A stretch of 64,000 bases of DNA. Origin: Mytilus galloprovincialis. Its lineage: Eukaryota > Mollusca > Bivalvia > Mytilida > Mytilidae. The notes beneath the pieces were generated by a model that worked only from the letters and a program-made list of their open reading frames with translations, was not told where the DNA came from and searched no databases. The stretch's first letter is position 1. Every line of letters begins with the position of its first letter. Positions 12,101-61,149 of the stretch are shown piece after piece. A program made the translations under genes and the position numbers. The stretch spans positions 33,323,440-33,387,439 of the forward strand of contig NC_134841.1 in NCBI RefSeq assembly GCF_965363235.1. The letters are read 5' to 3'.

Positions 12101-15100
12101 AGCTACAACTTTTTACCCAACCAATCACTGGGCGTGATTATCAGACGTGCTCCATTAAGGTTAGCAGATACTGCTTCTTATAGTACGTAACTTCCGTAAT
12201 ATATATACGCAGGTATGGCACGCCGTTTTTATATTTATTCAATTTTGAAGATATCTTATTTATTTAACAAGATATCTTATTAAGTATTAAGATATCTTTA
12301 ATTTTTATAAGATATCTTATTTAATTTGAAAGTAAATAAGATATCTCTATTAGTTTATAAGATATCTCTATTAGTTTATAAGATATCTCTATTAGTTTAT
12401 AAGATATCTCTATAAGTTATTAAGATATCTCTATTAATTAATAAGATATCTTATAAAGTATATAAGATATCTTACTTCTTTATAAAGATATCTTTTAAAT
12501 ACATACTTTATAAGATATCTTATTAATTAATAGAGATATCTTATAAATTAATAGAGATATCTTATTAATTAATAGAGATATCTTATAAACTAATAGAGAT
12601 ATCTTTATAACCAATTAAATAAGATATCTCTATAAGTTAATAAGATATCTCTAAAAGTTTATAAGATATCTCTATTAGTTTATAAGATATCTCTATAAGT
12701 TAATAATATATCTCTATAAGATAATAAGATATCTCTAAAAGTTTATAAGATATCTCTATAAGTTAATAAGATATCTCTATTAATTAATAAGATATCTCAT
12801 AAAAGTATATAAGATATCTTACTTCTTTATAAAGATATCTTTTAAATACAAACTTTATAAGATATCTTATTAATTAATAGAGATATCTTATAAACTAATA
12901 GAGATATCTTATTAATTAATAGAGATATCTTATAAACTAATAGAGATATCTTATTAACTTATGGAGATATCTTATTAAGTAAATAAGATATCTCTATTAT
13001 AAACTATATAAAAAATATCTTATATAGTTAATAAGATATCTTATAAATTAATAGAAATATCTTATATTTTAAATAAGATATCTTATATATTTAATAAGAT
13101 ATCTTTATAAACATTCTAATAAGATATCTTATTTAATATATAAGATATCTTATTTAATATATAAGATATCTTATTTAATAAATCAGATATCTCAATTAAT
13201 ATACATTGTATAAGATATCTCTAAAAGTTTATAAGATATCTCAATTAGTTTATAAGATATCTTATTTAACTAAATAAGATATCTCGAAATTGAATAAATA
13301 TAATAACGGCGTGCCATACGCGGGTGTTGATTATATTTTGGCTTTTCGTTGGTTGCGATTTTGACGATGTTTTGTAACTGTGCAATGAAAGATATTTTGT
13401 ATTTATTTTCGCAGACAGTAGATGATTTACAAGCTATTTCTAGAGAAGCAAAACACAAAATTGCAATCCAAAATAACACTGGAAGTGCAAGTTTAAAACC
13501 GGAAAATGCACAAAGGGCAATGAATATTATAAAGAAGTATTCGTATGAGGAAACAAGGAAGAAAAATGCAGCAGCAGCACAGATACATAAATGGGTACGT
13601 TTTTATTTATTAGTCTGCTGTGTTATTTATGTCGATGTGTTGCTGTCTTATTATGAAAATCAATTATTTCCTTTCATTAATAATAATGTCAGACAACTGT
13701 GAAAAGTTAATGAGTCATTCGATATTTAATGTTTACGATGTTGGCTTAGTTTAAAGAAAAATATGAAATTATTATAGATCTATTTTTAGCTCACCTGGCC
13801 GAAAGGCCAAATGAGCTTTTCTCATCACTTGGCGTCCGTCGTCGTCCGTCGTCGTCCGTCGTCGTCGTCCTGCGTTAACTTTTACAAAAATCTTCTCCTC
13901 TGAAACTACTGGGCCAAATTTAACCAAACTTGGCCATAATCATCATTTGGGTATCTAGTTTAAAAAATGTGTCCGGTGCCCCGCCCAACCAACCAAGATG
14001 GCCGCCATGGCTAAAAATAGAACATAGGGGTAAAATGCAGTTTTTGGTTTCTAACTCAAAAATCAAAGCATTTAGAGCAAATCTGACAGGATAAAATTGT
14101 TTATCAGGTCAAGATCTATCTGCCCTGAAATTTTCAGATGAATCGGACATTCCGTTGTTGGGTTGCTGCCCCTGAAATGGTAATTTTAAGGAAATTTTGC
14201 TGTTTTTGGTTATTATCTTGAATATTATTATAGATCGAGATAAACTGTAAACAGCAATAATGTTCAGCAAAGTAAGATCTACAAATAAGTCAACATGACC
14301 AAAATGGTCAGTCGACCACTTTAGGAGTTATTGCCCTTTATAGTAAATTTTTGACCATTTTTCGTAAATCTTAGTAATCTTTTAGAAAAATCTTCTCCTC
14401 TGAAACTACTGGGCCATATTTAACCAAACTTAGCCATAATCATCATTGGGGTATCTAGTTAAAAAAATGTGTCCGGTAACTCGGCCAACAAACCAAGATG
14501 GTCGCCATGGCTAAAAATAGAACATAGGGGTAAAATGCAGTTTTTGGCTTATAACTCAAAAACCAAAGCATTAAGAGCAAATCTGACAGGAAGTAAAATT
14601 GTTGATCAGGTCACGATCTATCTGCCCTGGAATTTTCAGATGAATCGGATAATCGGTTGTTAGGTTGCTGCCCCTGAATTGGTAATTTTGAGGAAATTTT
14701 GCTGTTTTTTTGTTATTATCTTGAATATTATTATAGATAGAGATAAACTGTAAACAGCAATAATGTACAGCAAAGTAAGAACTAAAAATAAGTCAGTATG
14801 ACCAAAATAGTCAATTGACCCCCTAAGGAGTTATTGCCCTTCATAGTCAATTTTTAACAATTTTCTTAAAATTTGAAGATTTTCAATAACATTTTCCACA
14901 GAAAGTACTGTTATAGATAGAGATAATTGTAAGCAGCAAGAATGTTTAGTAAAGTAAGATCTACAAACACATCACCATCACCAAAACACAATTTTGTCAT
15001 GAATCCATCTGTGTCCATTGTTTAATATCATATGCATAGACCAAGGTGAGCGACACAGGCTCTTTAGAGCCTCTAGTTCCTTTTGCACACCATTTTACGT

Positions 15101-15924: not shown

Positions 15925-16312
15925 ATATTGTTTTAAAAGATAACATCTTCAAACTGTATGCTTGGATGATGATGTGATTTTTTTGGAATTTTTTTTAGAA
16001 CAATTATGAACATTACTGAATGTTACTTGTCGCGAGGATATATCTTGAAACAAGCAAGACGATGATTGTCCTCATGGTCACTATAGTAGTGCAGGTACCG
16101 CATACCGATTTCCCCAAAGCACCTGAGTCAACCATCGTTTTTTAATGTTGTTCATGATGCTGAATGATAAGTCGTCAGCGTAGTGTTTTTGTTAACTGTA
16201 ATAGTTGATTGTTTGTTTGTTTGTTTGTTTTCCTTTTTTCAATGGTCATATCAGTCTTCCTTCGACATGTGGGATTTTTATATCCGATAACATTAACGGT
16301 ACCAATTTTTCT

Positions 16313-16356
16313 GCACCAGATGCGCATTTCGACAAATAATGTCTCTTCAGTGATGC
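16313..16356 (-). ncRNA. Type I hammerhead ribozyme, array copy 1
   Basis: Read on the - strand: stem I GCAUCA, core CUGAAGA (position 7 may vary), stem II GACA/UGUC with a 5-base loop, GAAA, a palindromic stem III UGCGCA, then UC and the cleavage point between 16319 and 16318. The other half of stem I, UGGUGC, follows and pairs with one G-U. The tiny stem III favours dimer-type (double hammerhead) folding. Confidence 0.85.
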
Positions 16357-16661
16357 TCGTGGCCAAAATATGTAAAATCCAAAGCTTATATAAAAGATGT
16401 AGAGCTATAATCCAAAAGTTCCAAAAAGTATAGCCAAATCCGTGAAAGGAATCAGAGCTTTGCATGAGGGAGATACATTCCTTAATTTATAATAATTTTT
16501 AACATTTTGTAACAGCAAATTTAATAACACAAAAAATCCGTATTTTCATGCCAGTACCGGAGTACTGGCTACTGGGCTGGTAATACCCTCGGGGTCTAAC
16601 AGTCCACCAGCAGATGCATCGACCAAGTGGTAGTAATAATATAAATGGTACCAATTTTTCT

Positions 16662-16705
16662 GCACCAGATGCGCATTTCGACAAATAATGTCTCTTCAGT
16701 GATGC
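16662..16705 (-). ncRNA. Type I hammerhead ribozyme, array copy 2
   Basis: Identical core to copy 1, 349 bases downstream; all catalytic positions (CUGANGA, GAAA, UC) are kept. Confidence 0.85.
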
Positions 16706-17010
16706 TCGTGGCCAAAATATGTAAAATCCAAAGCTTATGTAAAAGATGTAGAGCTATAATCCAAATGTTCCAAAAAGTATAGCCAAATCCGTGAAAGGAA
16801 TCAGAGCTTTGCATGAGGGAGATACATTCCTTAATTTATAATAATTTTTAACATTTTGTAACGGCAAATTTTATAACACAAAAAATCCGTATTTTCATGC
16901 CAGTACCGGAGTACTGGCTACTGGGCTGGTAATACCCTCGGGGTCTAACAGTCCACCAGCAGATGCATCGACCAAGTGGTAGTAATAATATTAATGGTAC
17001 CAATTTTTCT

Positions 17011-17054
17011 GCACCAGATGCGCATTTCGACAAATAATGTCTCTTCAGTGATGC
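17011..17054 (-). ncRNA. Type I hammerhead ribozyme, array copy 3
   Basis: Identical core, another 349 bases on, with stems I-III unchanged. Confidence 0.85.
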
Positions 17055-17349
17055 TCGTGGCCAAAATATGTAAAATCCAAAGCTTATGTAAAAGATGTAG
17101 AGCTTTAATCCAAATGTTCCAAAAAGTATAGCCAAATCCGTGAAAGGAATCAGATCTTTGCATGAGGGAGATACATTCCTTAATTTATAATAATTTTTAA
17201 CATTTTGTAACGGCAAATTTTATAACACAAAAAATCCGTATTTTCATGCCAGTACTCTACTGGGCTGGTGATACCCTCGGGGACTAACAGTCCACCAGTA
17301 GAGGCATCGACCCAGTGTTAGTAATAACATTAACGGTACCAATTTTTCT

Positions 17350-17393
17350 GCACCAGATGCGCATTTCGACAAATAATGTCTCTTCAGTGATGC
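17350..17393 (-). ncRNA. Type I hammerhead ribozyme, array copy 4
   Basis: Identical core, 339 bases from copy 3. The shorter spacing reflects a small deletion near 17254-17264 in the hairpin region of the third unit. Confidence 0.85.
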
Positions 17394-17528
17394 TCGTGGC
17401 CAAAATATGTAAAATCCAAAGCTTATATTAAAGATGTAGAGCTATAATCCAAAAGTTCCAAAAAGTATAGCCAAATCCGTGAAAGGAATCAGAGCTTTGC
17501 ATGGGGGAGATACATTCCTTAATTTATA

Positions 17529-17932
17529 AGTATCAACCCTCATTTAAAAACAAATATTTGAATATCGGAATTACAAAACGTTAACACAAATCAAATAAAA
17601 GTAGCTTCAGTTATATAATTTTATTAAATCAATAACAAGTGAGACTTGATGAAAATAATTTTAATGCTTGTAAACAAGATCTTTTAACATCTAACAAACT
17701 CGTGTTCACAATGTGTATTGATTGTCATATAAACTTATATTATTAAGTTTATGACAAAACACAATGCCTGTAACACAGATGCATTGATATTTAACAAATT
17801 CAAATTGAAACTCAAATGTTCATTTTGGTTTAAACTTTAACAAAAAGTGTGTGGCAAGTGCAAACCAAGTATACAATTTAACTGAAAATTAACATATGTA
17901 TACACAATGATTGAATTTCAATAAAGAGCCAG
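17529..17932. other. AT-rich spacer, nothing recognised
   Basis: No coding-like frame and no repeat that I can name. Confidence 0.4.
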
Positions 17933-19038: not shown

Positions 19039-22000
19039 TCATCGTCTCTTCTTTCGTTTCTCCTGTTTTGTGGCTGTAATTGTCGAATTGTCTTTCTTTG
19101 GACGGTAAAATTTGAGATTGCCTTCTGGTTTCCTATCAATTTTAGTCAAAGTTGGAAAGTCTTCTTGTTCCTCTGCGCTAATCATGTTTTGTTTTGTGGT
19201 TGCTATGGTCGGATTATCTTTCTTTGGACAGTTCCATTTTAGATTGCCGCTCGGTTTCTTATCAATTGTAGTCAAAATTGGAAAGTCTTCTTGTTCCTCA
19301 GCGCTCACTATGTTTCGTAATTCATCGGAAATTCCAGTTGATTGATTCGGAAGGGATTTTATTTTGATACGTTCACTTGATGACGGCGTGATAAAGTCAT
19401 TAAGTGACATTGAACGATTTCCACGTGTTTCTTCATTGGCTGAGCGACCTCGACCTCTAAAGTTACCTCTTGGTCTTCTCTGGGGTGTACTACTTCTTCC
19501 TGCTCGTTCATTAATTGCGAATCTAGACTCTTTCATTTGTCCATTACCTTTAACTGATCTGTCCCATTCTTTTTTAAAGTGAGTCTGGTCTGAAACTTGC
19601 TTCCTTACTTCGCCCCTTGAAAAGTGTATTTGTGTTGGGGAACTCCTTGTATCTTTTTGAAACTCCAATTTAGTTGCATCTCGTGTCACGGACTCTTTGT
19701 GTTGCTTTTTCGTCCTTGATTCTCGGCATACACAACACGTTATATCATCGTTGGTTATAGAGAAGATGTGACCTTTAAAAGAATTCATGAGCAAATGATA
19801 TAGAATAAATGTTTATGTTCAAATGAATTACAACAATTGAAGAGAAATCCATCTTTCAGAATAATAAGTACGGCATCTTGCGGACTGTTACGTGTACCTT
19901 GTGTAGTACAACTTTAAAAATACTCATCGTCGTCGTCTTTATTTATTAACCTTATGTTTCCAACGTAAAAAAAACACAAATAAAGTACACATTTGCTACT
20001 AAATATAACTAAGAAGTCCGATAAACGCGAGTTTATAGAAAAGTAAAATTATGAATATTATTTTTTTTTCTTCAAAATACCCATTTTTACAAATGCAAGT
20101 GATTACCTCGATTAAATTAGGCAAAACCTTACGGATTTTAAGACCCTAAATGCTTTTCAACTTCATACTTTATTTGGTCGTTTTGATTATTTTATTCGAG
20201 TATTTTGTAGACGAAACTCTCGTGTCATACATTTTTATCCTTGTATCTATGGTGATTAAATCATAAACTCTTTCGTTGAAAGAAGTTAGAGCTATTTTCT
20301 TCTACTTTATATTCTTCTTTTTGAAGGTTTGACGAATGAAATAATTTTTCAATCAATTATCTTTATTTCACATTTATTATATTATAGTTCGTTTCTCTGT
20401 GTGTTACATTTTAAATTTGTGTTTCTGTTGTGTCTTAGTTCTACTCTTATATTTGATGTGTTTCCCTCAGTTTTAGTTTGTAACCCGGATTTGTTTTTTT
20501 CTCAATTGATTTATGCATTTCGAACAGCGGTATACTACTGTTGCCTTTATTTATGAATACGCGTATATGTGTGTGAACTGTACTGACCTTTTCTACATAT
20601 GGCCCACTCATCCTGATGAACTCCCATCTTATCTCGTAGGACAGGGTATGCTTCAGCATTAATTAAATGCACATCTTCCTCTATACTCTCAAGGCTTGCG
20701 ATAAGAAAGGAAAGTAACTCATCAATATGTTGGTGATCATATTCAGCTCGAACAATTTGTGCTTTTATGAAGTGAACTACATCGTTCCCCTTAATGCTAA
20801 TGTAGGTCATGTTTGTCGTTTTTGTTATATCTTTAGGTCTCGCTCCTGCAGCGGTAAAGGAGTCATGTTTTATATCAAGAGGAACATCACTTTCAATCAA
20901 ATGACTTTGCATTTTGCTGTCTTCGAGAGGTTTGACTCCTTCAGCAACACGCTTGTCGTTAAAGGCAGCTTCCAAAACATCCGGTTTACTTGAACATATT
21001 GTTACGACCCAAAGAGTATGTAACTTATAGATTTCCTGAAACAAGTCTTCAAAACTATGTATATCACTTAATCCCTGGTTAACAGTATCGTATATCCTAT
21101 TAGCAATTGAAGTTGTGAACGATAAATTGTCAACAAAGTTTTGATCAGAATTTAAATACTTAACAATTTGTCTGTAGGTTGCGAATTTTTTCAAATACGT
21201 ATTTATAAGGTTTACAATGTCTCCACTATAACAAGGAAATGTTATTTGACGATTGGTATTCCTTTCCAAAATGTTGCTCTTAGCTGCTTCGATAAACTGC
21301 TTCTTACATTTGAGGACACGGTCATATCGTGGATGTTTATGAATGATTGTTTTGCAGGTTGGGCATTTTATAACAAGAGCATCCTTTGATTTCCTCATAT
21401 ATGCATCTAAAATTGTATCCGTAAATGTGTGACCACATTCTTTCAGGGTTACTGTTTTGTAAAATTTTGAATACGGATTGCTACTATCGCCCGGAAACTG
21501 ATTTGGTTTGCATTCTATACAGATATCTGGACAAGGCTCGCCACAATATCCAGAACATATATGTCCACATCCCAGGATACTTTTGCATGGTTGACTACAT
21601 TTTTGACGGTCGCATATTTCGCTACATAATTTGGAACATTTGGAATGTGGACACTGCCAGACGCACGGTTGTTTGCACGGTTTACATGGTTGACTACATA
21701 TGTTGGTACACTTTCTATGGTCACAAGCGTAAGTACAAGGTTTGTTGCAAGGTTTGCAATGTAGACAATTGTAACCGTTGCATTTATGTCCACATAGCTG
21801 CTCCTTTTCGCATTTTCTTTGGCATATTTTGTGGATCAAGCCGCCCTGGCATTCAATGCACAAATGCGTACAAATATGGCCACAGGAAAGCCGTTTTTGG
21901 CATTTTGAAGTACATTTTATAGGATGTCCAGCTCTATAACATTCAATTTCAATCGAATGCCCACAGGGTAATTTTTGCGAAACGTGATGACAACATAAAG

Positions 22001-25000
22001 GTATATCATTCGTATTCATCGGGTTTTCTGCCGTATCGATTTTATCGATTGCTTGTTTCATACTACATGGGATATTTGTTGTGTGGTTACATGACGGATA
22101 AGTATATGGAACTGTTACATTGCATTGCAAAGCTGAACCTTCTCTTTCCTCTTTGGATTCCCAACATGCAACGCTTAGAGTATGGCCACATGTTTTTAAG
22201 TATACGTCAACGTTTGACATACACTTAATACTTTCTAATGCCGGATCTACACCACATGAAATAATTTGTTCGTGTTGACATTTGGGCATTTTCTTTTGAA
22301 CATCATATGAACAACAAATCTGTTCCGGGTTTTTATAGCATTCTACCTTGTTTGTATGGCCACATTTTGGTAAAGTTTTCTGTACAAATTCCAAACATTT
22401 AAATGTGTTTAAGTCCTCTGAACAAGACATTTTCTGCATATGCTGACATCCCGTTATAACTCTTTCTATAATTGCGGAACAATAACAGGAAGACGGAAAA
22501 TGACATGTCCTGTTACATACATGAAGTTTGTCGCAAAGCTTCCTACATTTGTCTTTGCAAGTTGCATGTTTTGCCATAAAGCAATCTGATTCAACTGAAT
22601 GTCCGCAGTTGAACTTCTTTGTGACGGACTCCATGCAATTTATTTTATCTAAATCAGTATGACATTCTACGATTAGTGTGTGTTTGCACATCTTGAAAGT
22701 CTTTTCTGTTTGTATCAAGCATTTGATTTCATTTTCGAATACACGCTTCGATTCGTGACATTCTCTTTCGTATTCATGACCGCATTTAGATCTTGTATCG
22801 ATTACATTTTCTTTACACTTATAGCTGTCAACTATTGTGTGACAACGCATTAAAGCGGTATGGCCACATTTGAGAAGTCTCTGTACTTCTGTATAACATT
22901 TATGCTCCATTGGCTCAATATAACACTTTACTTGATTAATATGCCCGCATGAAAGTTGTTTTTCTATTTTTACCCAGCATTCACATGGATTTGATTCGTG
23001 ACATCTTCGAGGGCATTTGTGTTCGTTTGGACATGTCTTTGGACAGTTTTTCATACATTCGTATTCTATATGATCCCTATCAAAACTGTGACATCTAAAT
23101 CGACAAGCATGACCACAATTCAACCTAAACTCACACGGAATACCGCATCCACCATCGGGGGCTTTCAAGAAGTCTGTTGGAGATATTGCTTGAATTTCCT
23201 GCTTTTCGGGGTGATTTTGACAATACAAAAACAAACCTTTGCCGATACTGTTTTTACGTTTTAGTGTATCTGATATAACCTGCCAATGTTTAGATTTCCT
23301 TGTTAGGGTATCGATGTTGCCTATGATGTACATTCCCTTTTTGGCACGAGACAATGCAACACATATCCTGTTTTCTTTATTAAGAAAACCAATCACCCCC
23401 TCCTGATTGCTTCTGACCAAGGACAAGATGATGACTTCATTTTCCTCGCCTTGATAGTTGTCCAAAACACATATGGTGACACCTTCGAATTCTGCTTTTG
23501 GCATTTTCTTTTGAATGCAATACATCTGACCCGAATAAGCTGCTAAAATTGTTATTTGGCTCGGCTTGTAACCCTGGTTCAGCAAATATCTGCATAATTC
23601 TCTTGCGTAGTCAGCTTCGAATTCATTTGAATAACTTCTCCCTTCATCGCTGTAAACCTCAGGGCTCGAATGGTTGATAAAATAAAGATTCTGTCGAATT
23701 CCTCCAACATCTTCATAATACGTTACATTTTCGTTGTCTTCCAAAGCAGGATAAATATGTCTCACCAGATCTGCAATATCAGGTCTCATTCTGTGTTGTC
23801 TTTGTAGGCAATAATAATGTAATTCGTTATTTATCATTCTTTCAAAAAGAGAGACTGACAAATTGTATTTGATTGCAAGTTCGTGAACAGCTGGTTTAGG
23901 TTCTAGTTGTTTGTGATCACCTATAAGAATGACGTGTTGACAATTTTGGCTGAGGGCTGTAACAATGTGTGCTTCCAATACTTCAGCTGCCTCCTCAATA
24001 ATTGTAATTGTTGGTTTCAGTTTTGCTAGAGAATCGTAATATCGAGCTGCAGCCGTTGTTGTCAGTGCAATTACAGATGCTTTGCTCATAATAAGTTCAT
24101 CAATTTGAAATTTGGCTTGTTTGTATCGATCAAATAATGCACTGATAAGTCCTTCGGTGTCTTGCAGTTGTTGCTTTTGTGATTCTATATACTGGGAGAC
24201 CCAGAAACGATAAAACTTCCATCGATCTTCTAAAGTTAGTTCCCAGAGATCTGTGATGATATCTGCTGTTTCTCTGATCACCTTTTCTCCAAATCTGATG
24301 TTTTGTTTTACCTTTTCTGCCTCATTGCGCAATACGTCACGACATCTTTCCTCAACATTTTTCTTTTCGTTTTTCTTGAGCTGTTTTATTATGTCTAAAC
24401 CTAAGTTTTCGGTACTATATACCTCGTTGTATTCGTCATCTTCTATGTGTCTTTCAGCATATTCGAATTCTGCCTCACTTGTAATATCAATATATACAGC
24501 ATCATCGTTAGCAATGTGGTTGTGTTTGTACCGGCCTGTTGAACCATTTTGGCGTCCTTGGTAGATTTTCTCAACTTCTTTGTACCAAAATCCTTCTGTA
24601 ACTTCAAGCCATCGGTAGAAAGCTTTGTCTGGCTTTTCTCTGAATTCTTTTCTATGATCGCTAGACATGACAGTCTTTAAAACAATGAAGCCAAGAACAA
24701 TTTGTTCATTTTGAATAGCTGTCAATCTGGATTTGATTTGCACCATGCGTGATTTTAATCTGTCCACGAGTGTAATGGTGTTGCTATCTATATTTTTTAA
24801 ACGTTGTAGTTTGTAGGCTGTTTTACGATAGTTCGATAGGAACTTTGATCGATGTTTGAACAAGGTAAACTGCTCAACTGATGGATTCTTACAGCGGCTC
24901 CCTATTCTAACAATATCTTCCTTCGGAATTGACCCTTGGAATTTTATTATTCCTTCAAGGAACTGGTCTAAGGCATGATTTGTAAAACAGACAACCATGA

Positions 25001-26576
25001 TAGAATTTTTACATTCATATTCAAACATATCTTCCTCATCTGGAATTCTCCTGTATAACCTACGTTCATCCCTTAAAACATTCCTATCACTCCAAACGAG
25101 CTTGTTGTAAAGTAGTATTTTAGCAATTTGAAGTCCTATGTAGGTTTTACCTGTACCTGGAGGACCTTGTATAACAACGAACTCTTTAGTTAAAGCTGCA
25201 TGAAATGCTTCCCATTGAGCAGCATCAAGGTGAAGATCGTCCATACTAGGCCATTCTTCAATATTCAAAATATTCACAAAAGTTCTTTGTTCCGAGACAG
25301 GCATGAAGTCATAAGTTTGAGACCCTTCTCTTATATAACTCGGTGGCAAAATATCTCTTTCGCAATCGACAATGTATCTTTTGAATGGTATGTGCCCTTT
25401 AACTTTTTTTAATGCCGCTAAAACATGGCGATAAGATTCAAAATATGCTGATGATGACTCAATCATTACACCGTTAATGTTACGTGATATATTTTGATCC
25501 TTTCTAGTTATGAATATTTGGGCTTTGAATACACCTGACCGTTCCAAATCTTTTCTGTCAGAATCAACTATAACTGCGAATAAAACTGTGCGAAAATTAT
25601 CAAATGAAAGACAGACAAGAGACCCATAAATTAGTCTTTTTGAGGTAAACCAGTTTATTTTCTTAACTTGCTGATAATCGAGCTCGATTTCATAAACCGT
25701 TCCAAACTCATGTGATAACGTTGTGCCCATAATTTTTACATTACGATATAACCGTCCATCTTCTAAACGAATATGACGACAACGCGGTTGATTTTCGTCA
25801 TGATTTATTTGTATGTACTCTTTCACTGCGCTTCTAAGTGGACAAATAAAATCCTCTCTGTATAATCTAAATTGAACATCAAGATAGTGTTCAAGGTTTG
25901 TATACCGTCCCTTTGATTTGTTTCGACGAAGAAATTCAGTTGGTTCAAATACATCTCGATCGCTCGGTATGATGGAAAGTCGACGAAAATCGTCTGACGG
26001 TAACAGTTTATCTTCAAAGTCGTCTTCAACTTTTGGTATCGTCTTACATTTTGCCTTTTCTGTTAAAGTGTGAATTATATCGTGCCTTAATTTTGATACG
26101 CTATTAAGTTTTGTTTCCTTTTCGACTAAAATGTCGCTCGCTATAATCGTTTGGTTTAGAAAATCAACTAATCCAATTGTCTGTGGTGTCATTGCCGAAC
26201 TCGGTGTTCTCATAAACAGCTGCTGAATTATCAGAATAAAATCATCCAATAGACAGTTTAGTGGATGGGAACATTCTAGGTGTTCGTCATAGTGTTGTAT
26301 TAGGCTTAAGCCATTTAAACCAAGAAGGCTTGAATCTGAGATATCGCATAACAGCCGTAATATTAGGTCTGCATTACCATTGCTTCTAAGTGCCTTGCTT
26401 ACAATATGTACAAAAGCAGAAATTGTTTCCAGCTTCAAATCAGATTTATTCATAAAATATTTTAAATTATTTGTCGATGTTATACAGACCAATAATTCCT
26501 TATCGTCTATGTTATTTTCAAACATTTCCAATATGCGTCTAGATGTCAAACAATTTCCATGACTTTTTAAAGACAT
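19039..26576 (-). CDS. NFX1-type zinc finger helicase, ZNFX1-like, 2 exons
   Basis: Exon A (26576-20588) ends in phase 1 at AAAAG|GTCAGT, and exon B (19772-19039) begins GTCACATC after TTTTAAAG, giving 2,240 aa in one frame. The SF1 helicase core shows Walker A GPPGTGKT (about 471), motif Ia FTNHALDQF, motif II IIEEAAE (about 860), motif III GDHKQLEPKP (about 886), motif IV QRQHRMRPDIA (about 925), motif V DNYQGEENEVI and motif VI VALSRAKKGMYIIGN (about 1073). A long Cys/His array of NFX1-type fingers fills about 1140-1740 (NCGHACRFRCH, ECGHTFTDTI and many CGH...C repeats). The splice joins CRK to GHIFSI, rebuilding a W..C.KGH.(Y/F).I motif like the RZ finger of ZNFX1 and RNF213. The tail has an RG-rich patch (GNFRGRGRS). 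Vertebrate ZNFX1 senses viral RNA; nematode ZNFX-1 acts in small-RNA inheritance. The single large helicase exon is notable. An upstream exon is possible because the frame is open back to an acceptor (TTATTTCAG) near 26617. Confidence 0.9.
19066..19312 (-). repeat. Tandem 42-codon duplication in the ZNFX1-like C-terminal tail
   Basis: Two adjacent coding units of about 126 bp encode SAEEQEDFPILTTIDKKP and SAEEQEDFPTLTKIDRKP, each followed by a GNLK...PKKDN segment. The DNA is about 85% alike by eye. Length being a multiple of three keeps the frame. Confidence 0.8.
20115..20245 (+). repeat. Decayed retrozyme-type repeat in the ZNFX1 intron
   Basis: It contains 'TTCAACTTCATACTTTATTTGG', the body phrase also found before the hammerhead at 59.9 kb, then 'TTTTGTAGACGAAACTCTCG'. 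The CUGAUGA half of the hammerhead core is missing, so it should be inactive. Confidence 0.5.
20375..20556 (+). repeat. Mussel repeat 'GTTTGTAACCCGGATTTG' in the ZNFX1 intron
   Basis: Second copy of the 3330-3541 repeat. It ends only about 30 bases from the exon A splice donor of the ZNFX1-like gene, so it occupies part of the 815-bp intron. Confidence 0.65.
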
Positions 26577-31307: not shown

Positions 31308-33352
31308 ACTAGTATCTCAATTGTTTGTAAAACAATTGAAAGGTCTTTCCTGTAAAAGTGATGTTTTCGTATTGTACTTTGTACGACCTTTCGTTTGATA
31401 TACGACAAGCATACCTTCTGAAACTTTTCGCTTTTTACACTTAATGACCTCATCCGTCTACATTTTTGAGATCGGAATTATGATATATGGAACAGAGTAG
31501 ATGAGCTTTCGTTTGATATGCAACAACACCATGTTCTTGAAAGTTTGATTTTTGCACTTAATAACCCTATCCAACAAATTTATGGAGGTCGGGAATTTGA
31601 TATTTCAAATGTACACATCATGACCTTTCATTTGATATACAACAACCCTACCTTAAAAGAACATTTATTTTTTGCACTCAATGACCCCATCCAACCCATT
31701 TTTGGGAGACGTCAATTAGAAATTTGAAATGTACGCTTTATGTTCTTTCATTTGATATGCGACAACCTTACCATCTGAGAAATTTGAATGTTTGCACTAA
31801 ATGACCCCACCCGTCCCCCTGGGATGAAAAGGGGGTTTAAAATTTTCATTTTCAAGTAGAGTTTATTAAGACCTTCAATTTGATATATCAGATGACCCCA
31901 TTTGACAAAGTGCAAATAATGATGCAATATCAATTATATAAATAGAAGTTATGAAACTTACAAAGTCAATGCAAAACTTGAAAATTTCAAATTGAATTTT
32001 TGGTGTTTTTTTCCATGGAATATTTTTGGTATTTGGTCAAACATATAACTATGTCAACCTCTTCAATTTCTAAAACATTTTAAGTGGTAAGCTCTTGATG
32101 ATTCAGAAATACATGCCTCCGCTCGAAAAACTTCAAACTGCATTATCTCTAAAACGACAATAGATATCTCAAATCTGTTAAATGATAAATGATCTACAGT
32201 TGAAGGACAACATTATAGAAAAAGAATTGGGACAATTTCAAAGTTCACCAAGGTCACAATTAATCATCATATATATGATGCAATACAAAACTTGAGAACC
32301 GGAAGTCGTAGAGACATGGGACTATCACCATTCAACTCAGGACCACTTGGCCTTTCAAATATTACAAGGTCAAGGTCATAGTAAAATGTGTAGGTCAAGG
32401 TGAAATTTCATCATGACCTGACATTGACCTCAAATTGAAGGTCTTGAACTACTGATCATCTTTGCAGTTTATAGTAGGTTGATATCTGTTACCTTTAAAA
32501 AGATATACACACAATACTATACTTTTAAGAATCATCCCGTCGTAACTTTTGAACAGACAGTCGGACTCTTTTGAGGTCAGTGTATAAAATGTAGAGCTCG
32601 TCGAGAGGAACATTTTATACGCTGTAAGTATGCAGCAAACTCTTATCGTTTTCTTAATATGAAAGATTGAAATTGCAGCGTAATTTTTTTTTGCACTCGG
32701 TGACCTTTGACCTTGGGTGCAAATTAAAGGTCACATGAACTTAAGATTATTGGTGTAGGTCCCAAGTCTTTACGACTTCCTGTTCTCGAGATACAATTTT
32801 TCAAAAATTGTGTATATTTTTTCAAGGGAAATAACTCCTTATAAGGGTTAACAACAAAATGATTGTTTATGTTTATTATCATTGCCATCTGGTCTTGTAC
32901 ATGTTGCCGTTTTCAAATCGATTCTATCTTGAATACTTTTTGAGAAAAATGTAAAAGAATGAAATTGCTTCAAGGGGACGTAACTCTCATAGAGAATGAT
33001 GAAATCCTTAGCAGCCTCATATGGTAACACATCATAATGAGATCTAACTTTTGTCCAAATAAAATCATGATATCTTTAAAAACAACGAGGGGGGGCCATG
33101 TCGAAAAAAATCAATAAAAGGGAGATAACTTCTAAAGGGGATGATGAAATCCTACACAGCCTCATCTGGTAATACTTCATGATGAGGTCTACCAATGGTC
33201 CATATTTGGTCTTGATAACTCCAATAGAAACGACGGGAGGCCATGTCAAACAAATGCTGGATGAAAAAAAAAAAACAAAAAAAAAAAAAAAAAAAAAAAA
33301 AAAAACAGGAGAAAAACAATAAGGTCTTTCCTCGCGGAGAGGAAAGACCTTA
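31308..33352 (+). mobile_element. 2.0-kb Helentron-like non-coding element, copy A
   Basis: The left end is ACTAGTATCTCAATTG with a subterminal hairpin CAATTGTTT-GTA-AAACAATTG followed by AAAGGTCTTTCCT. Inside are about four tandem units of 115 bp ('CTTTCATTTGATATGC' phrase) and TGACCTTGACC-type repeats. The right part has an A tract and ends in a 13-bp-stem hairpin AAGGTCTTTCCTC-GCGGA-GAGGAAAGACCTT. Ends sit between A and AA with no target duplication. There is no protein. The right hairpin repeats the left subterminal motif directly and inverted, as in Helentron-type (Helitron2) non-autonomous elements. The A tract leaves a retroelement as an alternative. Confidence 0.6.
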
Positions 33353-36735: not shown

Positions 36736-38092
36736 TATCGAGAATGACATATTACCATTCCTGTCAATGAAAACTCATCAATAACAACATTCTTTAGATT
36801 AAAAATTGTTTCTTTTTGATGTTTTATCTATTCATTGTGTTTACTTTCAAATATGATTAAAGCCTTAGGGGGCCGTGGGGTAAAGCACTCAATCAACGAA
36901 AACACATTTTCATGTGCAAATGTCGTAAATGAGTTGTTCAGGTGAAATATTAAAATTTGTAAAGGGTTCTCTATGGAACCCTGGTTCTCGCCTGGGATTT
37001 CTCCAAGCGACAAATAATTTATCAGTCCATTACAGGATTTAAACAAATCAAATATTTTCATTAGATATTTTGTCTTGGTCAGGAATATTAATTTCTGCAC
37101 AAGTTTCATGACAAACTACGGAGGTTTATAAATTTATCACGAACATTAACTCATCATAGATACCAGCTTTGAAATTTTGTACTTGCGCCAGACGCTCGTA
37201 TCGTCTACAAAGGACACATCAATGTCGCTCGAAACAAACGTGACAAAAATTCCAGATCGTCTGATTTAAATTGCGTAAAGATATTAAAGTCTGTCTGTCA
37301 TTATAACAGTTACACGGAAAATTGAACGAAAAAAAGTTTGCTTCTAGCTAAAATTAACCATAAAAAAAAACTTCAATAAAGTTTCATTAAATTCGACGAA
37401 TGTTTAACAAAGTAATTGACATGTAACACATTTTAATCTCAGACTGTAAATGCAAAATGAATTCCTTTTATCCATAAATTACGGGAAAACTCATCATAAA
37501 ATAATTTTGTCATTATACTCTGGATACTCTATTGACCATCAACAGTTTTTGTCCAGCTACCGTAAAATTTTACGAAGGTTTGACAATTAAAGTTATTAAT
37601 ATCTTAAAACTTTAACAACATACTGAACCTAAATGTACATAGTTATAATATTGGCACCGCTGGCGAAATTTGAGGTAGGGCCAATTTGCCGATGATTTTT
37701 TTCACAGAAGGGCCAATTTCAAAAAGTGCCGAAAGAATAAAATTTACTATAAAAACAAAAAATAAACATGCTTTTTGATCAATATCTCGATTTACATATA
37801 TTATGACATGTGTGATCAAAAGTTAATTTGACCCTAAAAAAGGATGAAAGTCCAATATGCGGATTTTCAGGTGTTTTTAGGTGAGAAAAACAGGGAATCC
37901 CCTCAGAAGGACATTTTAAACCAAAAAAAAATTATGCTTTTTATGACTGTTGTTATTCATACTACTTGTTCCCTCAAAAATGAAATTGGTTTAGAGTGTC
38001 CTTATTACATAAAAAACAACTTTTTAAAGAAAAAATTGTAACATCGATAAATTGTACCGATATAGCTGCTTAATAAGAGAGATATGTATAAG
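36736..38092. other. Intergenic DNA with one decayed ribozyme repeat
   Basis: Apart from the hammerhead relic at 37186-37231, no gene or named repeat was seen; the 93-codon - strand ORF at 36828 has no recognisable domain. Confidence 0.35.
37186..37231 (-). ncRNA. Decayed hammerhead ribozyme relic
   Basis: Read on the - strand: AGCGACA, UUGAUGU, GUCCUUUGUAGAC, GAUA, CGAGCGUC, UGGCGC. The order is that of a type I hammerhead, but both conserved core boxes carry changes, so it should be inactive. Confidence 0.55.
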
Positions 38093-50482: not shown

Positions 50483-52439
50483 ACTAGTATCTCAATTGTT
50501 TGTAAAACAATTGAAAGGTCTTTCCTGTAAAAGTGATGTTTTCGTATTGTACTTTGTACGACCTTTCGTTTGATATACGACAAGCACACCTTCTGAAACT
50601 TTTCGCTTTTTACACTTAATGACCTCATCCGTCTACATTTTTGAGATCGGAATTATGATATATGGAACAGAGTAGATGAGCTTTCGTTTGATATGCGACA
50701 ACACCATGTTCTTGAAAGTTTGATTTTTGCACTTAATAACCCTATCCAACAAATTTTTGGAGGTCGGGAATTTGATATTTCAAATGAACACATCATAACC
50801 TTTCATTTGATATACAACAACCCTACCTTAAAAGAACATTTATTTTTTGCACTCAATGACCCCATCCAACCCATTTTTGGGAGACGTCAATTTGAAATTT
50901 AATATGTACGCTTTATGTTCTTTCATTTGATATGCGACAACCTTACCATCTGAGAAATTTGAATGTTTGCACTAAATGACCCCACCCGTCCCCCTGGGAT
51001 GAAAAGGGGGTTTAAAATTTTCATTTTTAAGTAGAGTTTATTAAGACCTTCAATTTGATATATCAGATGACCCCATTTGACAAAGTGCAAATAATGATGC
51101 AATATCAATTATATAAATAGAAGTTATGAAACTTACAAAGCCAATGAAAAACTTGAAAATTTCAAATTGATTTTTTGGTGTTTTTTTCCATGGAATGTTT
51201 TTGGTATTTGGTCAAACATATAACTATGTCAACCTCTTCAATTTCTAAAACATTTTAAGTGGTAAGCTCTTGATGATTCAGAAATACATGCCTCCGCTCG
51301 AAAAACTTCAAACTGCATTATCTCTAAAACGACAATAGATATCTCAAATCTGTTAAATGATAAATGATCTACAGTTGAAGGACAACATTATAGAAAAAGA
51401 ATTGGGACAATTTCAAAGTTCATCAAGGTCACAATTAATCTTCGAATATATGATGCAATACAAAACTTGAGAACCGGAAGTCGTAGAGACATGGGACTAT
51501 CACCATTCAACTCAGGAACACTTGACCTTTCAAATATTACAAGGTCAAGGTCATAGTAAAATGTGTAGGTCAAGGTGAAATTTCATCATGACCTGACATT
51601 GACCTCAAATTGAAGGTCTTGAACTACTGATCATCTTTGCAGTTTATAGTAGGTTGATATCTGTTACCTTTAAAAAGATATACACACTATACTATACTTT
51701 TAAGAATCATCCCGTCGTAACTTTTGAACAGACAGTCGGACTTTTTTGAGGTCAGTGTATAAAATGTAGAGCTCGTCGAGAGGAACATTGTATACGCTGT
51801 AAATATGCAGCAAACTCTTATTGTTTTCTTAATATAAAAGCTTGAAATTGCAGCGTAATTTTTTTTTTGCACTCGGTGACCTTTGACCTTGGGTGCAAAT
51901 TAAAGGTCACATGAACTTAAGATTATTGGTGTAGGTCCCAAGTCTTTACGACTTCCGGTTCTCGAGATACAATTTTTCAAAAATTGGGTATATTTTTTCA
52001 AGGGAAATAACTCCTTATAAGGGTTAACAACAAAATAATGGTATATGTTAATTAACATTGCCATCTGGTCCTGTACATGTTGCCGTTTTCAAATCGATTC
52101 TATCTTGAATACTTTTTGAGAAAAATGTAAAAGAAAGAAATTGTTTCAAGGAGACATAACTCTCATAGGGAATGATGAAATCCTTAGCAGCCTCATATGG
52201 TAACACATCATGATGAGATCTAACTATTGTCCAAATAAGGTCATGATATCTTAAAAAACAACGAGGGGGGGCCATGTCGAAAAAAACCAATAAAAGGGAG
52301 ATAACTTCTAAAGGGGATGATGAAATCCTACACAGCCTCATCTGGTAATACTTCATGATGAGGTCTACCGATGGTTTATATTTGGTCTTGATAACTCCAA
52401 TAGAAACAAGGGGAGGCCATGTTAAACAAATGCTGGATG

Positions 52440-52479
<40 letters not shown>
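50483..52479 (+). mobile_element. 2.0-kb Helentron-like element, copy B
   Basis: Same left end as copy A. It ends in a 40-base A tract with no terminal hairpin and is joined directly to the first base of copy C. Confidence 0.65.
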
Positions 52480-52482
<3 letters not shown>

Positions 52483-54435
52483 AGTATCTCAATTGTTTGT
52501 AAAACAATTGAAAGGTCTTTCCTGTAAAAGTGATGTTTTCGTATTCTACTTTGTACGACCTTTCGTTTGATATACGACAAGCACACCTTCTGAAACTTTT
52601 CGCTTTTTACACTTAATGACCTCATCCGTCTACATTTTTGAGATCGGAATTATGATATATGGAACAGAGTAGATGAGCTTTCGTTTGATATGCAACAACA
52701 CCATGTTCTTGAAAGTTTGATTTTTGCACTTAATAACCCTATCCAACAAATTTATGGAGGTCGGGAATTTGATATTTCAAATGTACACATCATGACCTTT
52801 CATTTGATATACAACAACCCTACCTTAAAAGAACATTTATTTTTTGCACTCAATGACCCCATCCAACCCATTTTTGGGAGACGTCAATTAGAAATTTGAA
52901 ATGTACGCTTTATGTTCTTTCATTTGATATGCGACAACCTTACCATCTGAGAAATTTGAATGTTTGCACTAAATGACCCCACCCGTCCCCCTGGGATGAA
53001 AAGGGGGTTTAAAATTTTCATTTTTAAGTAGAGTTTATTAAGACCTTCAATTTGATATATCAGATGACCCCATTTGACAAAGTGCAAATAATGATGCAAT
53101 ATCAATTATATAAATAGAAGTTATGAAACTTACAAAGTCAATGCAAAACTTGAAAATTTCAAATTGATTTTTTGGTGTTTTTTTCCATGGAATATTTTTG
53201 GTATTTGGTCAAACATATAACTATGTCAACCTCTTCAATTTCTAAAACATTTTAAGTGGTAAGCTCTTGATGATTCAGAAATACATGCCTCCGCTCGAAA
53301 AACTTCAAACTGCATTATCTCTAAAACGACAATAGATATCTCAAATCTGTTAAATGATAAATGATCTACAGTTGAAGGACAACATTATAGAAAAAGAATT
53401 GGGACAATTTCAAAGTTCACCAAGGTCACAATTAATCATCATATATATGATGCAATACAAAACTTGAGAACCGGAAGTCGTAGAGACATGGGACTATCAC
53501 CATTCAACTCAGGACCACTTGACCTTTCAAATATTACAAGGTCAAGGTCATAGTAAAATGTGTAGGTCAAGGTGAAATTTCATCATGACCTGACATTGAC
53601 CTCAAATTGAAGGTCTTGAACTACTGATCATCTTTGCAGTTTATAGTAGGTTGATATCTGTTACCTTTAAAAAGATATACACACAATACTATACTTTTAA
53701 GAATCATCCAGTCGTAACTTTTGAACAGACAGTCGGACTCTTTTGAGGTCAGTGTATAAAATGTAGAGCTCGTCGAGAGGAACATTTTATACGCTGTAAG
53801 TATGCAGCAAACTCTTATCGTTTTCTTAATATGAAAGCTTGAAATTGCAGCGTAATTTTTTTTTGCACTCGGTGACCTTTGACCTTGGGTGCAAATTAAA
53901 GGTCACATGAACTTAAGATTATTAGTGTAGGTCCCAAGTCTTTACGACTTCCGGTTCTCGAGATACAATTTTTCAAAAATTGTGTATATTTTTTCAAGGG
54001 AAATAACTCCTTATAAGGGTTAACAACAAAATGATTGTTCATGTTTATTATCATTGCCATCTGGTCTTGTACATGTTGCCGTTTTCAAATCGATTCTATC
54101 TTAAATACTTTTTGAGAAAAATGTAAAAGAATGAAATTGCTTCAAGGGGACGTAACTCTCATAGAGAATGATGAAATCCTTAGCAGCCTCATATGGTAAC
54201 ACATCATGATGAGATCTAACTTTTGTCCAAATAAGGTCATGATATCTTTAAAAACAACGAGGGGGGGCCATGTCGAAAAAAACCAATAAAAGGGAGATAA
54301 CTTCTAAAGGGGATGATGAAATCCTACACAGCCTCATCTGGTAATACTTCATGATGAGGTCTACCGATGGTCAATATTTGGTCTTGATAACTCCAATAGA
54401 AACGAGGGGAGGCCATGTCAAACAAATGCTGGATG

Positions 54436-54473
<38 letters not shown>

Positions 54474-54570
54474 AGGAGAAAAACAATAAGGTCTTTCCTC
54501 GCGGAGAGGAAAGACCTTAAAAACAGGAGAAAAACAATAAGGTCTTTCCTCGCGGAGAGGAAAGACCTTA
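52480..54570 (+). mobile_element. 2.0-kb Helentron-like element, copy C
   Basis: Nearly identical to copy A over its length (closer than to B). Its 3-prime hairpin module (ACAGGAGAAAAACAATAAGG + hairpin) is present twice in tandem. Confidence 0.65.
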
Positions 54571-54740
54571 ATTATAGTAATCACGTATATTTATAAGCAA
54601 ACCTTTCAATTGCACTAATACAATTTCACACATTATGAAATAGATAATCACACAGTTCTAATCACTGTATGAACCGTTTACTACTCTCATGAAAGGTGAA
54701 ATACATGTACCTAATAACTTTCTTGTTATCATTAATCATT

Positions 54741-58189: not shown

Positions 58190-58990
58190 ACTTCGTCCAT
58201 GAACTTCTTAGGAAGAAAGAAAAGAAGTTACTGTTTACTTTACTCTCCGCTATATAGAGGATGTTCTTTCACTAAATAATTCAAAATTTGGTGACAATGT
58301 TTAAGGCATCTATATCATCGAACTTGAAATATAGGGTACACCAGATACAGTTAAGTCTGCTTTATATCTTGACTTACATCTAGAAACTGACAATGAAAGT
58401 CGGTTGAAAACAAAACTTTATTCGACAAGATAGATGATTTCAGCTTCAGTTTCAATTTCCAGCAACACCTGCATACGAAGTATATTTCTATCATTTGATA
58501 TGGTATTCCAGGGCTTGTTTTTCTTACTAGGATTTCAATTATAGAGAGTTACTGCTCACAAGGAAGCGTTTAAACCAAGAAGTTATGAAGTCATCCCTTC
58601 GTAATAATTCGGACGCCATCACGAGTTTATTGACCGTTATGGAATATCCGTTTCACATATGATAGCGGATATGTTCCTTTTATCGTTACTACAATACCGT
58701 CCCCTTTTCCCGAATGTGACCTATCAAATAAGACTTATTACTGGGTTTGTAGTAGCATGAGTAACACGATGGGTACCACATGTGGAGTAGGATATGCTTA
58801 CCTTCCAGAGCACCTGAGATCACCCCCAGTTTTTGGTGGGGTTAGTGTTATTCAGGTTTTAATTTTCTACGGTTGTGTATTGTGCGTCTGTTGTTCTTTA
58901 TTTTTCCTTTTATACATGGCGTTGTCAGTTTATTTCGACTAATTAGTTTGAGTGTACCTTTGGTATCTTTTGCCTCTCGTATTAATATAC
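58190..58990 (+). mobile_element. Fossil 3-prime part of a reverse-transcriptase element
   Basis: Broken remnants resemble an RT whose active-site region is of the Y(I/V)DD type, followed by its C-terminal region and a 3-prime flank ('CCACATGTGGAGTAGGATA', 'GAGCACCTGAGATCACCCCC') that recurs widely in bivalve genomes. It is badly degraded, with many breaks, and looks old. It is probably a Penelope-like or LINE-type element; no LTRs are visible. Confidence 0.5.
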
Positions 58991-59890: not shown

Positions 59891-59942
59891 AAGTACTAAC
59901 TTCAACTTCTTACTTAGTAGGCCTTTTTAACTTTTTTTATTC

Positions 59943-59987
59943 GAGCGTCACTGATGAGTTTTTTGTAGACGAACGCGCGTCTGGGCC
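59943..59987 (+). ncRNA. Near-intact hammerhead ribozyme relic
   Basis: GAGCGUCA, CUGAUGA, a stem II GUU/GAC, then GAAC instead of GAAA, followed by GCGCGUC and UGGGC. The upstream body 'TTCAACTTCTTACTTAG' matches other retrozyme-type copies. One lost A in the GAAA box and a weakened stem I argue against activity. Confidence 0.65.
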
Positions 59988-60765: not shown

Positions 60766-61076
60766 ATTTATCAATCTTTTCAAGGTGTTTTGTTTGGGTT
60801 TTATGTCAAATGTGTTGTCATATCAACCAACTTTTCCAAGTATAAAAAGGGTATCTATTTAATTTAAGTAAAAACCATTAAATCAAACAAAAGTCTAAAA
60901 GCTTTAAGAAACCTAAGGATGCATAACAATACTATGATAGCACATATTAGATAATAGTTATAAAGATGTATTATTACAGAAACTTCCATATTTTACCATA
61001 GAGTTCGATTTTTTTTTTGACGTTTTGAGAACATACAATATAATTCGGAAATACCTAAATTTTGAATTCTCAGATT

Positions 61077-61118
61077 CGTCACTGATGAGTCTTCTGTAGA
61101 CGAAACGCGCGTCTGACG
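61077..61118 (+). ncRNA. Intact type I hammerhead ribozyme motif
   Basis: Stem I CGUCA/UGACG (perfect), core CUGAUGA, stem II GUC/GAC with a 7-base loop, GAAA, palindromic CGCGCG as stem III, and cleavage after the C at 61113 (GUC). All invariant positions are present. It is a single copy here, with no neighbouring unit. Confidence 0.8.
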
Positions 61119-61149
61119 TAAAAACAAAATTTACTCCTGGTATATTTTT

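Follow-up and report, generated by a model that had tools for sequence, protein, structure and literature searches.

The array of hammerhead-bearing repeats in the DNA analysed here, a 64,000-nucleotide stretch of the Mytilus galloprovincialis genome (the window), raises a question that has been open for animal retrozymes: how do they return into DNA? For this mussel, the available text of Cervera and de la Peña (2020; PMC7229834) describes two hammerhead families, repeats of 350-390 bp, and circular RNA on northern blots. The same text proposes tandem cDNA as the product of a primed circle, and names Penelope-like elements as a strong candidate to provide the enzyme. A review of that year states, in the parts available to us, that animal retrozyme repeats have no conserved motif that would betray a partner element (PMC7761336).

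The window lies on contig C4 of an assembly of 1.385 Gb in 331 contigs. Its retrozyme features, and two hammerheads of a second family, are as follows.

16287..17529, - strand: retrozyme array of 3.6 units, with the RNA 5' end at 17529 (unit position 176) and the RNA 3' end at 16287 (unit position 32).
16313..16356, - strand: type I hammerhead ribozyme, closest to the RNA 3' end (RF00163, 31.2 bits; pattern match).
16662..16705, - strand: type I hammerhead ribozyme (core pattern).
17011..17054, - strand: type I hammerhead ribozyme (core pattern).
17350..17393, - strand: type I hammerhead ribozyme (core pattern).
16287..16318, - strand: 32-nt tail from the final ribozyme cut to the insertion end, with letters TGGTGC...GGTACCGTTAATGTTAT.
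16543..16632, - strand: conserved block of one unit (unit positions 36-125), with predicted stem-loops; its placement in the window was counted by hand.
61076..61119, + strand: type I hammerhead (CUGAUGA) of family 2, a lone copy (Rfam 30.1 bits; core pattern).
59942..59984, + strand: decayed family 2 hammerhead, where GAACG replaces GAAACG.

The original prediction, made from the letters of the window, was of four intact type I hammerheads on the - strand, repeated every 349 nt. The four ribozymes are there, with the same core in each: CTGAAGA, GACA/TGTC, GAAA, TGCGCATC and a 6-bp stem I, GCATCA/TGGTGC. Allowing one mismatch, a relaxed core pattern matches the window five times, at the array's four ribozymes and at the 61-kb hammerhead; 100 shuffles gave 0.00 matches on average. 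At position 7 of the hammerhead core, where CUGAAGA and CUGAUGA differ, any base is tolerated. The ribozyme closest to the RNA 3' end is predicted to cut between 16319 (C17) and 16318, and the junction of 16668 to 16319 foreseen for a monomer is indeed the predicted cleavage junction. The period needs a small amendment. Tandem Repeats Finder gives 349 (3.6 copies, 96% matches over 16287-17529), while one unit measures 339 owing to a 10-bp deletion.

A covariance model, the check suggested at the outset, gave a divided answer. Applied to 81 bases, Rfam Hammerhead_1 found one array hammerhead at 31.2 bits, short of the gathering score, which is 34. The array hammerheads were not matched at the gathering score, at E<=10 over 2.2 kb, or at E<=5 over the whole window. 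Because the 81-base search did reveal the hammerhead, the absence in wider scans is taken as an effect of the filters.

The evidence supports the view that the array is a metazoan retrozyme, non-autonomous and non-LTR, and one more member of a kind known from mussels. The units, at 349 bp, fall within the range of about 150-450 bp given for such elements; each carries a type I hammerhead, although one scoring below the Rfam gathering score; and the GC content, 37% in the 339-bp unit, is below the 45-50% limit. Coding sequence for a reverse transcriptase with a GIY-YIG endonuclease was not found in the array, where the longest mechanical open reading frame that overlaps it has 122 amino acids and a TTG start. 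The strand of the hammerheads and the copies elsewhere in the genome bear out both the retrozyme reading and the leftward sense of transcription.

Other features share the window. A segment of 1.87 kb is present in three copies (31428-33300, 50603-52476 and 52600-54472) that are 97-99% identical, two of them nearly adjacent; it holds 120-bp internal repeats and a terminal poly(A) stretch. Two identical 51-bp units, each with the inverted repeat GGTCTTTCCTC/GAGGAAAGACC, lie at 54468-54571. At 12231-13284, AT-rich repeats of 20-21 bp, with AAGATATCTTATT in the consensus, run in tandem for about 1 kb. On the - strand at 20547-26576 is an open frame of 2009 amino acids with a ZNFX1 domain and AAA domains.

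The genome, of course, holds many more hammerheads than the window. With up to three mismatches, the family 1 pattern of the array finds 4,118 places and that of family 2, the commoner, 34,858; the reversed patterns, used as controls, find 0 in each case. The hammerhead predicted at 61 kb is real, and the two lineages do coexist; its neighbour at about 59942 is decayed, and the copy is single, not an array. A further decayed family 2 hammerhead lies on the - strand at about 37186-37225. When the 61-kb region was used as a query against the genome, all of the matches listed, except the region itself, fell between its two hammerheads (query positions 327-881).

How well does the hammerhead fold stand as a structure? 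Paired changes distinguish the two families in all three stems. In 17 sequences from both families, 97.5% of 204 cells are paired (85.4% in shuffles), and 27 cells are changed on both sides (10.9 in shuffles). The number of pairs with a change on both sides shows no excess (5, against 4.2 in shuffles, with 146 of 500 shuffles as high), nor does the number of pair types (9, against 10.3); thus, two of five measures are not above shuffles. The 17 were picked from 49 distinct forms (10 of 42 in family 1, all 7 in family 2), all filtered beforehand for having 10 or more of the 12 pairs. For the most part, the changes reflect a single split between the families.

Folding energies tell a different part of the story. 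In an isolated ribozyme stretch the hammerhead is not the best fold (z-score 0.20), having -3.7 kcal/mol against -7.8 for the best. Two copies of the ribozyme co-fold exactly as a dimeric hammerhead at -27.3 kcal/mol, via the palindrome AUGCGCAU; judged by energy alone, this suggests that the ribozymes may work as dimers. The fold of a whole unit is barely beyond its shuffles (z -0.53, with 28 of 100 as good). Selection on resident ribozymes was also considered. Divergence within arrays is 3.0% in the ribozyme and 3.8% elsewhere, and lower in the ribozyme in 14 of 20 arrays (p 0.048). Nothing is claimed from this, because units are excised by their own ribozyme, which biases the comparison.

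The question of return to DNA is best put to the places where arrays begin and end. For this, 35 loci were fetched as the best hits to the window array, and so are not a random sample (the best 40 of 4,560 candidates were scored). Two were removed as segmental duplicates (L031 and L042, of L024 and L038), and two others, the two ends of a single array (L021 and L022), were counted once. With the window array, this leaves 33 independent arrays. Two of these, L032 and L041, were kept in the count of ends and left out of the test for target duplications.

With unit positions numbered from the ribozyme cut and the arrays read in RNA sense, the 3' end falls at 32-38 in 31 of the 33. Of the other two, L041 lacks part of its last ribozyme and, by eye, finishes with the same terminal letters as the other arrays; L032 is a true exception, the one array with its 3' end elsewhere. 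Measured against each array's own unit, 27 of 31 ends fall 17-22 letters past the start of GGTAC. The remaining four (L033, L037, L038 and L039) gave 5 past GGTAC, possibly because a different motif served as anchor; their ends were assessed by eye instead. At the 3' junctions listed, no consistent tail repeat or poly(A) is present; the array ends and unrelated host DNA follows.

The 5' ends behave otherwise. Around the unit, those of the 33 arrays show no clustering (Rayleigh p 0.31). Within nine positions around the cut, an interval chosen after an initial look at the ends, lie five of them (348, 1, 1, 2 and 4), where 0.85 would be expected (p 0.0015). These five arrays are 4.07 to 4.11 or 6.11 units long, so each is a whole number of units with the tail added.

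Not one of the 33 arrays ends at the ribozyme cut, where priming on the 3' ends of cleaved monomers would have placed the end. Further, because insertions end 32-38 nt past the cut, the array in DNA is not merely a chain of cleaved monomers. As far as our literature search reaches, the fixed ends and the junction evidence are new for animal retrozymes. The main text of PMC7229834, as available, gave nothing on fixed ends, on empty sites or on 5' ends at the cut, and the titles and opening lines of abstracts in the open-access literature gave no report of fixed ends of animal retrozymes.

Family 2 gives a second view of the same point. The 328,139 bases scanned (the fetched loci and the window) contain 25 of its hammerheads, three of which are duplicates in L042; these loci were picked around family 1 arrays, which makes the sample non-random. 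From near the cut, 24 of the 25 could be aligned, and 6 run on into a next unit. Nine of the 24 end at reference position 36-52, five at 30-35, two at 26 and two at 64-69, in a set that takes in a diverged subfamily poorly served by the reference. The family 2 end is homologous by sequence to the family 1 end.

Directly past this fixed 3'-end point, in both families, lies a conserved stretch. Conservation between the families peaks at unit position 41-60 (90%), continues at 61-120 (73-75%), and runs at 37-69% in other intervals of the unit. Seven units of family 1 and three of family 2 went into the profile; two of the three are incomplete at their ends, which lowers the last intervals. The conserved block is predicted to fold into stem-loops. 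In the ten hand-picked sequences used for this fold, 3 of 31 pairs are changed on both sides, with a small covariation term (-0.12).

Did these arrays truly arrive as insertions? For some relatives of the window array, the site without the array can be read. Around L020, the flanks join exactly at ACATTT^AAATG in an empty site, with 2 differences in 220 bases; five further places match all 220 joined bases at 99%, making six in total. L023 has at least 34 empty places with joined flanks and 3 extra bases (among the best 40 of 2,649 candidates). In the four such copies read, the extra bases are TTT (three) or TAT (one), meaning that the insertion lost 1-3 bp. Compared with related empty copies, L037 and L034 have short duplications, the latter also showing 4 extra bases.

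As it happens, the window itself contains, at about 58207-58664, a diverged copy (72% identical) of the repeat that the L023 array hit, with the empty site at 58331-58333. The flanks of L037 match the same repeat.

Target duplications were then counted at the two junctions of each array. Exact repeats of at least 6 nt tie the junctions in 12 of 30 arrays, where mismatched pairs of junctions lead one to expect 2.2; for at least 7 nt, the figures are 6 of 30 and 0.6. The offset ranges in this test were fixed after a test with loose positions, which gave no excess at a score of at least 9 (1 of 32, duplicates L031 and L042 included, against 28 of 992 control pairs). A duplication of at least 6 nt is absent in 18 of the 30. 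The duplication at L036 has 23 bases; in at least one of the twelve arrays, L009, the repeat is made of element letters. Because several duplications start with TT, the nick seems to be placed at TT.

For the window copy itself, the evidence of mobility is thinner than for its relatives, which supply the empty sites and the target duplications. Its duplication has only 5 letters, and it has no empty site, because its flanks are single-copy.

The units within arrays add a further kind of record. Some arrays are wholly uniform: all 14 units of L020, all 5 of L009, all 4 of L017 and all 3 of L023 are identical, while their mean identity to other arrays is 94-96%. Units of L009 and L010 find their best match, at an identity of 1.000, in a unit of another locus, which means that uniform DNA sources exist.

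The window array is less uniform. The original prediction took its high unit identity as a sign of recent spread or homogenisation. Identity within the array is indeed 96.9%, against a mean of 93.2% to the units of other arrays, but this is modest beside the 100% of the most uniform arrays; for that reason, the window array is not among the youngest copies. Two of its units, 16668-17016 and 16319-16667, have common changes that are absent from the third.

Long arrays, in which up to about 22 units were read, allow neighbours to be compared with distant units. In all seven loci with at least nine units, adjacent units resemble each other no more than units far apart (a difference of at most 0.002), which is the expectation if all units came in together from one molecule. 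Among the 31 loci with at least three units, neighbours are more alike by 0.005-0.031 in 11, and less alike in one. These 11, which include the window array, all have six units or fewer. They imply that local duplication or conversion after insertion acts as well.

We therefore read the arrays as the probable products of target-primed reverse transcription that starts from a fixed internal site on a circular RNA and continues for several rounds, because this accounts for the fixed 3' end, the scattered 5' ends, the identical units and the empty sites. From such a start, a cut linear monomer would leave an insert of only about 33 nt.

The steps would run as follows. Leftward transcripts would be cut by their hammerheads into 349-nt monomers that become circles; cutting and circles have both been published for M. 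galloprovincialis. A reverse transcriptase encoded elsewhere would bind the circle at the conserved stem-loop block, nick an AT-rich target, and prime at one fixed position, about 33 nt beyond the point where the ribozyme cuts. It would then copy round the circle, in the arrays read from about three to more than 20 times, and stop at scattered points. Where the RNA had been cut, the enzyme would presumably run off at the ribozyme cut, to give the arrays that begin there.

Which enzyme might do this? The most likely one, in our view, is a Penelope-like reverse transcriptase, although we would give this only about an even chance. In the anole, a Penelope-like element called PAc has a reverse transcriptase that starts internally, past a hammerhead, and nicks AT-rich DNA with an ATT motif; Frangieh et al. 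call such an internal, non-homologous start unique to Penelope-like elements, and found that ribozyme mutants left insertion in vitro unchanged (PMC11167929, as far as its text was available).

The mussel genome has Penelope-like elements of its own. A search with the PF01541 profile gave at least 147 matches (among the best 150 of 1,001 candidates), and six sequences were read: four loci, and two stretches of 401 bases downstream of GIY-YIG matches (L044-L047, L049 and L050). Two of these, L044 and L046, are one family with a small CUGAAGA hammerhead, seen by eye and missed by the pattern scripts; in L044, GIY-YIG scores over and RVT_1 slightly under the Pfam cut-off. A clear hammerhead was not found in the other four, L045, L047, L049 and L050, of which L049 looks coding, so that its 3' end was perhaps not reached.

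The 3' region of the L044 family gave at least 44 matches (from the best 40 of 256 candidates). Of these, 36 end at one base, about 111 nt past the cut by a hand count; four end at 222-223, which is 35 nt earlier, three at 247-254, and one is the query's own place. Thus, the retrozyme (31 of 33) and this family (36 of 44) alike show insertions that stop at one fixed internal place beyond a hammerhead, and in this genome the Penelope-like class behaves likewise. The letters GTTATTAT of L044, 27 nt past its cut, resemble the retrozyme; they were dropped as a candidate end, as none of the 44 matches ends there.

A separate observation concerns four of the 44. At G000:C8:34551925-34552437 and three similar places, Penelope-like copies stand head to head with inverted partial copies that are without the last 35 nt.

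A LINE-type enzyme might instead move the same element. Target-primed reverse transcription, short target duplications and a TT at the nick suit LINEs also, and none of the six Penelope-like sequences read matched the retrozyme, its tail included, at E below 0.02 (best E 0.022, taken as chance), which leaves Penelope-like elements as a candidate partner. LINE enzymes, however, start at the 3' end of their own RNA. Junctions that show neither a consistent tail repeat nor poly(A) speak against them too, as does the uniqueness that PMC11167929, in the portion available, grants to the internal start. We consider a LINE-type enzyme the less likely mover, with a little under a third of our belief.

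The template, rather than the enzyme, is the subject of another alternative. A linear read-through RNA of many units might have its 3' end made at about 33 by a processing enzyme or a terminator, and reverse transcription might start there, with no circle needed. According to the available text of PMC7229834, the ribozyme is slow in M. galloprovincialis, at about 0.1 per min, so uncut multimers should exist. The five arrays that start at the cut, with four or six whole units and a tail, would fit run-off on cut linear oligomers, and uniform arrays able to serve as sources do exist. But the identical units in arrays of 14 and of 5 demand a uniform source array here, whereas a circle yields uniformity free. 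Moreover, with unrelated host DNA after the 3' end of a source array, nothing is seen that would set the RNA end at that place. The linear template is improbable by our reckoning.

Last, the array might be an ordinary satellite that unequal crossing-over and DNA circles have spread, with the ribozyme incidental. This would suit the tandem arrays of up to about 22 units, the closer likeness of neighbours in 11 of 31 loci and the changes shared by two of the window units. It is very hard to credit, however, beside clean empty sites, short target duplications, the even likeness in the seven longest loci, and array ends of which one is fixed and the other free with respect to the unit.

Reverse transcription on a circle is thus the reading that we carry forward. 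In its full form, each array is the record of a single target-primed event on an RNA circle, with one entry site beside a stem-loop, 20 rounds or more possible, and either a random stop or a run-off at the cut; taken with all of these parts, we lean towards it, at somewhat better than an even bet. If it is true, every array reports the entry site, and five of 33, or about one in seven, report that the ribozyme cut in the germ line. Thanks to the fixed ends, the empty sites and the conserved block next to the entry site, the return of these elements becomes a claim open to test, in which the entry site is named and a structure is put forward as a candidate for recognition.

How does this compare with systems already known? 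Plant LTR retrozymes, in the available text of PMC7229834 and PMC7761336, likewise bear hammerheads, are non-coding and pass through circular RNA; they differ in having type III hammerheads, LTRs, a PBS, a PPT and 4-bp duplications. Penelope-like elements code for their own reverse transcriptase and GIY-YIG endonuclease, for which the window array has no open reading frame long enough. PAc of Anolis, as far as PMC11167929 was available, shares with the mussel arrays a hammerhead upstream of a fixed internal start of reverse transcription, insertions that end there, an AT-rich nick and tandem copies. The closest likeness is, of course, to the retrozymes already described from M. galloprovincialis. 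The available text of PMC7229834 reports about 5,000 hammerheads, by another method and so not strictly comparable with the 38,976 found here by both patterns with up to three mismatches. In both descriptions the elements have type I hammerheads in two similar families, tandem repeats of about 350-390 bp, low GC and thousands of copies.
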